Part shown: positions 2 to 60,947 of the stretch, piece after piece | Position numbering within the stretch: position 1 is the first letter of the stretch | How the letters are laid out: each line of letters opens with the position of its first letter | Source: Flavobacterium sp. J49 | Lineage (GTDB): Bacteria > Bacteroidota > Bacteroidia > Flavobacteriales > Flavobacteriaceae | Direction: 5' to 3' | Length of the DNA: 64,000 nt | Assembly (NCBI RefSeq): GCF_011742145.1 | Contig: NZ_JAAQQU010000104.1 | Coordinates: forward strand, 143,938 to 207,937 | The notes under the pieces: model-generated | What the model was told of the DNA's origin: nothing | Databases searched by the model: none | What the model saw: only the letters and a program-made list of their open reading frames with translations | Program-made: the position numbers and the translations under genes

Positions 2-109
2 TTAGGTATATTTGCTATCCTTATTCCTGCTGTTCGTTACAATTTTTTGATTTGCCTTTCACTGGCGTTACAGGCCGATCAAAAAGATTTTCACTTCCAT
101 CAGGGCTAA
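2..109 (+). CDS. C-terminal end of an unidentified, probably membrane, protein (partial)
   Basis: An open frame enters from the left edge and stops with TAA at 107-109, giving 35 residues. The first 23 are strongly hydrophobic (LGIFAILIP, then YNFLICLSLALQ) and look like a last membrane helix, followed by a short polar tail rich in His, Asp and Lys. It stops 24 bases before the dCMP deaminase start on the same strand, so the two could share a transcript. Too little is present to name a family, and a chance frame cannot be excluded. Confidence 0.35.
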   Translation, partial: LGIFAILIPAVRYNFLICLSLALQADQKDFHFHQG

Positions 110-133
110 AGGAAAAACCATTGATTTTCTGTT

Positions 134-25799: not shown

Positions 25800-25844
25800 A
25801 TGGATTATTTTAGAAGCGAAAGGTTTGGGTGTTCTTGGCATCGA

Positions 25845-25945
25845 TATTCCCGCTTTTCATTACAATCTTATTGTATTTTCCTTCCGCTTTGCTACAGGAT
25901 AATCCAAAAGGATTTCCATTACAATCGGGGCTGGTTAGGATATGT
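25845..25945. repeat. Decayed intergenic hairpin element with flanking direct repeats
   Basis: TTTTCATTACAATC (25854-25867) recurs as TTTCCATTACAATC (25913-25926), a direct repeat with 13 of 14 matches. Between them, AATCTTATTGTATTTTCC and GGATAATCCAAAAGGATT form an imperfect inverted pair around CTTCCGCTTTGCTA. The general form resembles an intergenic element I associate with flavobacterial genomes. That is recollection, not a search result. Confidence 0.45.
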
Positions 25946-58721: not shown

Positions 58722-59882
58722 ATGTCAAAAGAAATAAAATCCGTGGAATACGGACTTGAAAAAATATTTGAGGGCGCACAAGATTTTTTGCCGCTTTTAG
58801 GAACCGATTATGTAGAATTTTATGTGGGTAACGCCAAACAAGCTGCCCATTTTTACAAAACTGCTTTTGGTTTTCAGTCCCACGCCTATGCCGGTCTAGA
58901 AACCGGAATGAGAGACCGAGCGTCTTATGTTTTGAAACAGGACAAAATCCGTTTAGTATTAACCACAGCTTTAAACAGCGATTCTCCTATTGGTGAACAC
59001 GTAAAAAAACATGGCGATGGTGTGAAAATAATTGCTTTATGGGTGGAAGATGCTCGTTCTGCTTTTGAAGAAACTACCAAGCGCGGAGCAAAAGTTTACA
59101 TGGAACCAACCGTAGAAAAAGACGAGCACGGAGAAGTAGTTCGCGCCGGAATTTATACTTACGGCGAAACCGTTCACATGTTTGTAGAACGTAAAAATTA
59201 CCACGGTTCCTTCTTACCGGGCTATAAAGAATGGAAATCCGATTACAATCCGAAACCGGTTGGTTTAAAATATGTAGACCACATGGTAGGTAATGTAGGT
59301 TGGAACGAAATGAACACTTGGGTAAAATGGTACGAAGACGTAATGGGATTTGTAAACTTCCTTTCGTTTGACGACAAACAAATTACCACTGAATATTCTG
59401 CTTTGATGTCAAAAGTAATGAGTAACGGTAATGGTAGAATCAAATTCCCAATCAATGAACCGGCCGAAGGAAAAAAACGTTCACAAATTGAAGAATATTT
59501 GGATTTCTATGAAGGATCAGGTGTGCAGCACATTGCCGTAGCGACCGACGACATCATCACCACAGTTGCTGATATGCGCGCCAGAGGAATTGAATTCTTA
59601 ACCACTCCTCCTCAAGCGTATTATGATGCGATTCCTGAAAGATTGAAAGATCATATGAGCAAATTCAAAGAAGACATTAATGAACTTCAAAAATTAGGGA
59701 TCATGATTGATGCGGATGACGAGGGTTATTTATTACAAATTTTCACCCGGCCGGTTGAAGACCGACCAACTTTGTTTTTCGAGATTATTCAAAGAATGGG
59801 CGCCAGAGGTTTTGGTGCCGGAAATTTCAAAGCTCTATTTGAGTCTATTGAAAGGGAACAAATGTTACGAGGAACACTGTAA
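58722..59882 (+). CDS. hppD: 4-hydroxyphenylpyruvate dioxygenase
   Basis: A 386-residue non-haem iron enzyme converting 4-hydroxyphenylpyruvate to homogentisate, the step just before HmgA. It is a two-domain vicinal-oxygen-chelate fold. The N-terminal domain begins TDYVEFYVGNAKQAAHFYKTAFGF. The catalytic domain carries the three iron ligands: His in LKYVDHMVGNVG (about 187), His in GSGVQHIAVATDD (about 270) and Glu in PTLFFEIIQRMGARGFGAGNFKALF (about 351). The last motif is the conserved C-terminal helix gate. Complete length. Confidence 0.95.
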   Translation: MSKEIKSVEYGLEKIFEGAQDFLPLLGTDYVEFYVGNAKQAAHFYKTAFGFQSHAYAGLETGMRDRASYVLKQDKIRLVLTTALNSDSPIGEHVKKHGDGVKIIALWVEDARSAFEETTKRGAKVYMEPTVEKDEHGEVVRAGIYTYGETVHMFVERKNYHGSFLPGYKEWKSDYNPKPVGLKYVDHMVGNVGWNEMNTWVKWYEDVMGFVNFLSFDDKQITTEYSALMSKVMSNGNGRIKFPINEPAEGKKRSQIEEYLDFYEGSGVQHIAVATDDIITTVADMRARGIEFLTTPPQAYYDAIPERLKDHMSKFKEDINELQKLGIMIDADDEGYLLQIFTRPVEDRPTLFFEIIQRMGARGFGAGNFKALFESIEREQMLRGTL

Positions 59883-59968
59883 AAATTAAAATTTGTTAAA
59901 CATAATTTAAAAAATAGCCTTAAAAAAGTCTATGTTTTATTAATTTATTGTTAAAGTTGGTTTTTTGC

Positions 59969-60000
59969 TTGTAATAATGCAACAGGTTGAATTATCTTTG
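59969..60000 (+). promoter_or_regulatory. Promoter of a possible small RNA
   Basis: TTG at 59969-59971, a 21-base spacer, then TATCTTTG at 59993-60000. This fits the Bacteroidota promoter pattern and points to a start near 60006, far from any coding start. Confidence 0.55.
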
Positions 60001-60005
60001 CAGCA

Positions 60006-60120
60006 TCAAAAAAGAGGGGTGGTTCCCTCAACTTTTGGATAAATTTTCATAATTTATAGTTTTTTGGTTGGTTAATAGCATAAAAACTCAGTCATTAATT
60101 TGATTGGGTTTTTTTGTTTT
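60006..60120 (+). ncRNA. Candidate free-standing small RNA
   Basis: A transcript of about 112 bases is bounded by a consensus promoter and an intrinsic terminator in the 288-base gap between hppD and the DUF3108 gene. It can form three hairpins: GAGGG-GTGGTT-CCCTC (60014-60029), ATAAATT-TTCAT-AATTTAT (60039-60057) and the terminator (60083-60112). No open frame of note lies within it. It might match a known structured-RNA family of flavobacteria, such as Flavo-1, but I cannot confirm this. Alternatively it is a leader for the downstream gene, although that gene has its own -7 box. Confidence 0.5.
60083..60120 (+). terminator. Intrinsic terminator of the small-RNA-like unit
   Basis: AAAACTCAGTCA-TTAATT-TGATTGGGTTTT, a 12-bp stem with two wobble pairs, followed by TTTGTTTT. 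Confidence 0.75.
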
Positions 60121-60122
60121 AA

Positions 60123-60130
60123 TACTTTTG
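60123..60130 (+). promoter_or_regulatory. -7 box of the DUF3108 gene promoter
   Basis: TACTTTTG matches TAnnTTTG, 40 bases before the start at 60171. A TTG 16 bases upstream lies inside the preceding terminator. Confidence 0.45.
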
Positions 60131-60170: not shown

Positions 60171-60947
60171 ATGAAAAAAGTTATCGTTTTACTTTTGTTT
60201 TTTATTACTGTTAGTTTTGATACCCAAAAGCCGGAAGCCTATGATGTAGGAGAATGGTTCAAGTTCAGAATACACTACGGATTTATCAATGCAGGATATG
60301 CGACTTTAGAGGTTAAAGAAGCCGTAAAAGAACACAAAAAAGTCTATCACGTCATCGGCAAAGGATATACTGTCGGAATGTCACGCTTCTTCTTCAAAGT
60401 AGATGACACCTACGAAAGTTACTTTGATAAAATCACCAACAAGCCTTATCAATTCGTTAGAAAGATAGATGAAGGTGGTTATACCAAAAACCAAGAGGGC
60501 TTTTTCAACCAAGCCAACAATAAAGTTTTGGTGAAAAATTATAAAAACAATACCGAAAAAACATTTGCTGTAACAGAGAACGTTCAAGACATTTTATCTA
60601 CCTTTTATTATCTGAGAAATCACCCCAATATTGACAAATTAAAAGTTGGTGAATCTATTGTAGTTGATATGTTTTTTGATGATGAAGTTTTTAAATTCAA
60701 GTTAAAATTCACCGGTAGAGAAGAATTAAAAACTAAATTCGGAACCGCGTCTACCATGGTTTTTAGACCATTGGTTCAATCGGGACGTGTGTTCAAAGAA
60801 GAAGAAAGTCTGACCGTTTGGATATCAGATGACGAAAATAAAATACCTTTGCGAATTAAAGCCAGTTTAGCCGTTGGTTCTATTAAGGCAGATTTAGACG
60901 GCTTCAAAGGATTGAAAAGTCCTTTTATGGTTAAATTAAAAAAATAA
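60171..60947 (+). CDS. DUF3108 domain-containing exported protein
   Basis: A 258-residue protein with an N-terminal signal peptide (MKKVIVLLLFFITVSF, to about residue 17). An all-beta DUF3108 domain follows: EWFKFRIHYGFINAGYATLEV near 26-46, KKVYHVIGKGYTVG, RFFFKVDDTYESYFD, and ESLTVWISDDENKIPLRIKASLAVGSIKADL near the C-terminus. It is likely periplasmic, and its function is unknown. Its stop overlaps the ATG of the tryptophan dioxygenase gene by one base (TAATG), so the two are translationally coupled. Confidence 0.85.
   Translation: MKKVIVLLLFFITVSFDTQKPEAYDVGEWFKFRIHYGFINAGYATLEVKEAVKEHKKVYHVIGKGYTVGMSRFFFKVDDTYESYFDKITNKPYQFVRKIDEGGYTKNQEGFFNQANNKVLVKNYKNNTEKTFAVTENVQDILSTFYYLRNHPNIDKLKVGESIVVDMFFDDEVFKFKLKFTGREELKTKFGTASTMVFRPLVQSGRVFKEEESLTVWISDDENKIPLRIKASLAVGSIKADLDGFKGLKSPFMVKLKK

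Follow-up and report, generated by a model that had tools for sequence, protein, structure and literature searches.

The 64,000-nucleotide stretch of DNA from Flavobacterium sp. J49 analyzed here (the window) contains a gap between hppD and a DUF3108-type gene, in which an initial annotation, made from the sequence alone, placed a small RNA (sRNA) gene. This locus raises the question of whether the gap encodes an independent RNA or a part of the transcript of a neighboring gene, and how such an RNA would act. The features discussed below are the following.

58722..59882, +: hppD, the upstream neighbor in most loci (name from the initial annotation and from PMC5682007, where hppD is THC0290_0232)
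59950..59957, +: upstream element GTTAAAGT, putatively an activator site or upstream promoter element
59969..60000, +: sRNA promoter as read in the sequence, with TTG at 59969-59971, N21, and TATCTTTG at 59993-60000
60005..60117, +: sRNA gene (probable Rfp18 orthologue), approximately 113 nt with predicted ends
60014..60029, +: hairpin 1, GAGGG-GUGGUU-CCCUC, a covarying stem with a mostly conserved loop
60039..60057, +: hairpin 2 of the predicted fold, AUAAAU...AUUUAU, holding the conserved UUUCAUAAUUUA block
60062..60077, +: conserved core UUUUGGUUGGUUAAUA, defined by identity across copies; proposed seed
60082..60113, +: intrinsic terminator stem (13 pairs, loop of 6), followed by T
60100..60130, +: separate promoter of the downstream gene, with TTG at 60100-60102 (in the 3' arm of the terminator), N20, and TACTTTTG at 60123-60130
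60171..60947, +: downstream neighbor, a DUF3108-type gene (name from the initial annotation)

Conservation of the element

In a search of 60 relatives, each of the 36 other genomes of the same genus contained the element (best E values of 6.4e-49 to 7.2e-18), and the 23 genomes of other families gave no match better than 3.0e-5, with matches that were short and chance-like. Twenty-nine of the 36 same-genus loci were examined and form, together with the J49 locus, a set of 30 aligned loci, across which the stretch from the AU hairpin (hairpin 2) to the terminator is nearly invariant. A covariance model built from these 30 loci produced matches at an E value of ≤0.01 in 122 of the 299 family genomes, representing 101 of 236 genera; this search used strict filters and rough E values, and some of the weaker matches are due to chance. 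A second covariance model, built from 73 family copies, gave matches at an E value of ≤0.001 in 46 of the 296 genomes sampled from the order, all in the window's own family, the share of other families among the 296 not being given by the search output. The genome of J49 itself has one strong copy; a candidate second copy (C26:63173; E value of 0.007) was rejected, as the core is absent. In one other member of the genus (L258, 1595-1717, minus strand), the GGGGTGGTT motif is missing around hairpin 1, and the core and terminator are kept. An Rfam covariance search that includes Flavo-1 had been named as a check on the sRNA; when run against Rfam 15 at gathering and permissive thresholds, no family matched the element, Flavo-1 included, and the best subthreshold match was MicC, with 20 bits versus a gathering score of 90.

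Promoters and predicted fold

The promoter with both boxes described in the initial annotation was read at 59969 to 60000. According to PMC9723704, TAnnTTTG at positions −12 to −5 is the housekeeping box of F. psychrophilum, and because of this spacing, position +1 of the sRNA is predicted at about 60005, in agreement with the start near 60006 suggested before. TAnnTTTG is invariant in the 30 aligned Flavobacterium loci (30/30). Compared with this box in the genus, the TTG part of the promoter is far less conserved in the family: among the 55 linked copies, which have hppD, the DUF3108-type gene, or both as neighbors, an exact TAnnTTTG is present in 40, and 16 also have a TTG at a suitable distance. 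GTTAAA lies upstream of 54 of the 55 linked copies, in 34 of them as GTTAAA-N3..5-GTTAAA, both being raw counts. The GTTAAAGT element upstream of linked copies is often doubled with a 10-bp period (e.g., in L062 and L064) and is possibly the site of a regulator.

The downstream gene had been assigned a promoter box of its own, and this box proved to be real. It lies at a conserved place in 29 of the 30 loci, 28 of them recognized by a search expression and one (L020, with TATATTTG) by eye, and its TTG part overlaps the 3' arm of the sRNA terminator. The expression for box and TTG together matched in 29 of the 30 loci, versus approximately 2.4 expected from mononucleotide shuffling; in L030, where the conserved box is longer by one T, it matched at another place. 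The sigma-70 scan that we used was built for the E. coli type and listed neither this promoter nor that of the sRNA.

The two hairpins and the intrinsic terminator that had been described between the promoters are part of a stable predicted fold. For positions 60006 to 60118, the folding energy is −30.6 kcal/mol, versus a mean of −17.28 for dinucleotide shuffles (z score of −4.45), and none of 200 shuffles was as good. A U/G-rich stretch lies between the AU hairpin and the terminator. Since the 4-kb stretch around the element has six terminator-like sites, versus 3.7 expected, the terminator alone is no proof of an sRNA. On the minus strand, hairpin 1 with its preceding A-run also reads as a terminator (window positions 60029 to 60014). 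As stated before, there is no substantial reading frame: within the 113 nt, frames that open with ATG, GTG, or TTG have at most 11 codons, three of them running past the end of the element, and a small-peptide reading was rejected, as no frame exceeds this length.

Covariation and the conserved core

Conservation of the pairing in relatives, whose absence would have refuted the sRNA according to the initial annotation, was found in the form of compensatory changes. In a sequence-only alignment of 73 family copies, 93.0% of the cells in the two strong helices (hairpin 1 and the terminator) are paired, versus 69.5% after shuffling, and 178 cells show double changes, versus 45.6; none of 500 shuffles reached the observed pairing, double changes, or covariation score. 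Sliding the helix partners abolished the pairing, and the 30-locus genus set agrees with this result. Helix 1 is paired in 90.2% of the cells, with double changes in five of seven pairs and one pair without letters, and the terminator helix is paired across genera in 95.5% of the cells, with double changes in all six pairs. That 11 of the 13 pairs show a double change somewhere says little, as 84 of the 500 shuffles reached this number. Hairpin 2 is a feature of the predicted folding.

Over the same 73 copies, mean identity is 62 to 77% in the arms of the strong helices, 95% in loop 1, 95% in UUUCAUAAUUUA, and 99% in UUUGGUUGGUUA. The mean unpaired probability of UUUGGUUGGUUA is 0.61, and the core is thus predicted to be only largely free.

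Neighboring genes and copies at other loci

The most constant neighbor of the element is the DUF3108-type gene, which lies directly downstream in all 30 element-bearing genus loci and in all 30 best-scoring family loci, the J49 locus being in both sets. Upstream, hppD was not found within approximately 1.5 kb in L013, L014, and L020, nor in several family loci, and some of the fetched stretches showed no hppD or no tryptophan dioxygenase (TDO) gene. The hinted link to tyrosine and tryptophan breakdown is therefore unsupported.

Some copies have other surroundings. In L082 and L102, copies lie beside hppD/TDO or hppD, with the DUF3108-type gene absent from the fetched stretch, and tandem copy pairs occur at the usual kind of locus in L082 and L083. 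Copies in stretches with neither hppD nor the DUF3108-type gene were found in L075 to L077 (three copies in one genome), L080, L081, L086, L093, L108, L111, and others, next to genes that by eye are lipA-like, fabH-like, transporter-like, and others. In L080 and L081, which come from two genomes, three tandem copies each lie between genes that by eye are esterase-like and symporter-like, with a sigma-54-type site on two of the three in each. In L086 (1557-2292, minus strand), five tandem copies with a spacing of approximately 161 nt lie beside a lipA-like gene, each with the motif TGGCAC-N5-TT. The matches in L085 and L089 start where a small coding gene ends, contain the core and terminator, and look like relatives derived from 3' untranslated regions.

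The promoter motifs of these copies differ from those at the usual locus. The sigma-54-type motif TGGCAC-N5-TT is present in 11 of 23 off-locus copies, in 5 of 14 loci, with 5 of the 11 belonging to one array, versus none of the 55 copies at the usual locus, the window copy included; TAnnTTTG was found in 3 of the 23. Before this count, the matches in L087 and L094 were rejected and removed, as they lack the core, and the weak members L078, L085, L089, L092, L108, L111, and L079:2845 were retained. Among the later loci L253 to L258, clear sigma-54-type sites are present in L253, L254, and L255. Both the sigma-54 and the activator assignments are putative, being based on motifs. The family-wide matches, the copies at other loci (some in arrays of three to five), and the sigma-54-type motifs are new here, and in the literature searched we found no other report of the element, its family-wide spread, its sibling copies, or the second promoter type.

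Probable relationship to Rfp18 of F. psychrophilum

PMC9723704 describes an F. psychrophilum sRNA, Rfp18, with conservation in the genus, a strong structure, and a predicted pairing site in the 107-bp intergenic region between fpp2 and fpp1; the pairing region of the sRNA is placed in the "third stem-loop." Expression of Rfp18 and a deletion phenotype are reported there: in stationary phase, the mutant has lower levels of the fpp1 and THC0290_0300 mRNAs, with fpp2 unaffected. The same text gives dxs as THC0290_0298, and the affected protease gene is THC0290_0300.

F. psychrophilum DSM 3660 has one strong copy of the element (93.7 bits), with hppD on its upstream side and the DUF3108-type and TDO genes downstream. 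By interpolation between anchors given in PMC9723704, THC0290_0232 falls at approximately 280 kb, between Rfp11 (182,564) and Rfp36 (840,245), an interval that also holds other RNAs numbered Rfp12 to Rfp35. The S46 peptidase genes gave no anchor for placing the element in F. psychrophilum, and a match on contig C14 was rejected as the end of a groEL gene with a chance terminator. In the predicted fold, the core occupies the interval that separates stem 2 from stem 3 and is immediately followed by the terminator, the third hairpin, whereas the published description places the pairing region in the third stem-loop itself. Candidate sRNAs have also been reported in F. columnare (PMC5395568).

In DSM 3660, two tandem metalloprotease genes begin 3.7 kb from the element. 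Their 106-bp spacer, approximately 7 kb from the element, contains in its second half TTAACCAACC, an exact complement of the core, and TTTAACCAACCTAAACTT with TTAACCAA 19 to 26 nt before the second protease gene, giving 10 contiguous pairs with the core. The predicted duplex of core and spacer has an energy of −16.6 kcal/mol; 25 of 1,000 shuffles and 49 of 2,400 windows were as good, which places it only among the best 2% of windows. Judged by spacing and family, the pair is presumably fpp2 and fpp1. Beside dxs, which in this draft is on another contig than the element, lies a tandem pair of closely similar HEXXH protease genes; they have TTAACCAA 15 to 22 nt before their starts and are presumably THC0290_0299 and THC0290_0300.

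Among 58 frames of at least 120 amino acids in the fetched DSM 3660 stretches, one of which is a fragment of an fpp2-like gene, TTAACCAA occurs in the 50-nt leaders of three of four HEXGH-type protease genes versus 1 of 54 other frames (P = 0.0005, or 0.006 with the dxs pair counted once). Three hundred letter-shuffled 8-mers were found in a mean of 0.16 leaders and a maximum of 3, versus 4 for TTAACCAA, and TTAACCAA is absent from the 50-nt leader of the presumed fpp2. Its presence in the leaders of the presumed fpp1 and the dxs-side genes and not in that of fpp2 fits the reported phenotype of the Rfp18 mutant (PMC9723704). The element is thus in all likelihood orthologous to an sRNA already published, and from its locus, conservation, and pairing, we regard its identification with Rfp18 as highly probable, with Rfp13 or Rfp15 as less likely alternatives.

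Putative targets in Flavobacterium sp. J49

With up to two mismatches, the seed complement TTAACCAACCWAAA is rarer in the J49 genome than its reversed control (97 + 91 versus 172 + 174 sites), and a 12-mer of the seed complement showed no excess in 25 genomes (205 versus 266 for the reversed control). When the placement of 30 loci each was compared, 3 of 27 non-self seed-complement sites were in leaders, versus 1 of 30 control sites (P = 0.27). In the J49 genome, 8 of the 15 sites with at most one mismatch, excluding the element itself, are located no more than 50 nt upstream of a start codon, compared with 2 of 14 examined two-mismatch sites (of 172) in leaders (P = 0.033, or 0.052 when two sites before one gene count once). 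By eye, the frames behind these leader sites resemble a lipoprotein, LpxD, two RDD proteins, and others. The leader excess is weak, and a regulon of such candidate targets in this organism is only a suggestion. In the control search, AAATCCAACCAA recurred in multiples of 291 bp (G007, contig C4, 1687-6936, and contig C3, 81345-81938), and this is a tandem-repeat gene or array.

Discussion

The earlier proposal of a free-standing sRNA gene holds, in that the element has its own promoter and terminator, the next gene has a separate promoter, both strong helices show compensatory change, and copies exist elsewhere without these neighbors. In our judgment, the element is very likely the Rfp18 orthologue, an sRNA that acts in trans by base pairing through a GGUUGGUUA seed. 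The sRNA would be transcribed from a housekeeping-type promoter and would fold into hairpin 1, the AU hairpin, and the terminator, leaving the seed UUUGGUUGGUUA largely unpaired. The seed would then pair with AACC-bearing leader sequences some tens of bases upstream of the start codons of target mRNAs, in bacteria without Shine-Dalgarno sequences, and pairing would alter translation or stability; in F. psychrophilum, loss of Rfp18 is reported to lower the mRNAs of two metalloproteases (PMC9723704).

Action in trans is favored because copies exist without the neighboring genes, and this bears directly on the idea of a cis-acting leader, in which an attenuator or riboswitch with a ligand-switched terminator would express the DUF3108-type gene by read-through. 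The position of the element directly upstream of this gene in all loci of both sets, a steadier association than that with hppD or TDO, is what such a leader would produce, but the gene is served by a conserved promoter of its own past the terminator, arrays of three and five copies occur in stretches without it, and in the fetched stretches the L082 and L102 copies have hppD/TDO or hppD beside them and not this gene; we hold a cis-acting leader to be highly improbable. A 3'-end or read-through product of hppD, with no independent gene, would agree with an element that starts approximately 120 nt past the hppD stop on the same strand. An invariant promoter box and the loci in which hppD was not found upstream speak against this, making it extremely unlikely. 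The element could also be a protein-binding RNA, acting as a sponge or scaffold, with the GGUU modules in the loop (GUGGUU) and in the core (GGUUGGUU) as binding sites. The high conservation of both blocks, the increase in dosage that tandem copies would bring, and a seed complement without overall enrichment all suit such a role. Nevertheless, the core is complementary to the leaders of the presumed Rfp18-dependent genes and not to that of the presumed fpp2, and L024, L025, L026, and L035 have another loop in place of GUGGUU with an unchanged core, so that we consider a protein-binding RNA very unlikely.

Going beyond the trans-acting sRNA itself, it is conceivable, as a tentative proposal, that the Flavobacteriaceae have a family-wide regulon with two arms, consisting of the housekeeping copy beside the DUF3108-type gene and, in some genera, sigma-54-controlled siblings, some in tandem, with the same GGUUGGUUA seed directed to AACC leaders without Shine-Dalgarno sequences. 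If so, envelope or stress signals would feed into the same target set. Multicopy sibling sRNAs with a shared seed, in tandem or dispersed, are known as Qrr in Vibrio and LhrC in Listeria, Qrr being driven by sigma-54. The layout of the element is similar; these RNAs belong to other phyla and have other sequences, and the comparison is an analogy only.

Among sRNAs of the Bacteroidota, the element resembles Rfp18 in its genus-wide conservation, strong structure, and the presumed hppD-side locus and protease-leader pairing sites, and differs from Rfp18 as published, at the genus level, in its family-wide matches, off-locus copies, sigma-54-type motifs there, and defined core (PMC9723704). Many off-locus copies share a sigma-54-type motif with Rfp36, which the same source describes as a putative regulatory RNA under a sigma-54 (SM4) promoter; the F. 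psychrophilum draft has only one strong copy of the element, so kinship to Rfp36 is unsupported. Like the element, GibS of Bacteroides thetaiotaomicron is an intergenic sRNA with a conserved single-stranded seed that acts near start codons, but its seed is in the 5' part, it is approximately 145 nt long, and it is conserved within Bacteroides, as compared by description (PMC7366714). Seeds or targets are known for few sRNAs of the Bacteroidota. In light of this, an element that has a conserved core, sibling copies carrying another promoter type, and a published deletion phenotype that probably belongs to it in one species offers a testable model for sRNA action on leaders without a Shine-Dalgarno sequence, and its covariance model is absent from Rfam 15.

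The Flavo-1 RNA (Rfam RF01705) is also found in Flavobacteriaceae, and the window has two matches to it, at 19-111 (minus strand; 68.6 bits) and 25842-25936 (minus strand; 58.2 bits), both unrelated to the element. With these and a tRNA in the same window, the description of the gap as the only place there with a transcript unit without a gene was overstated.
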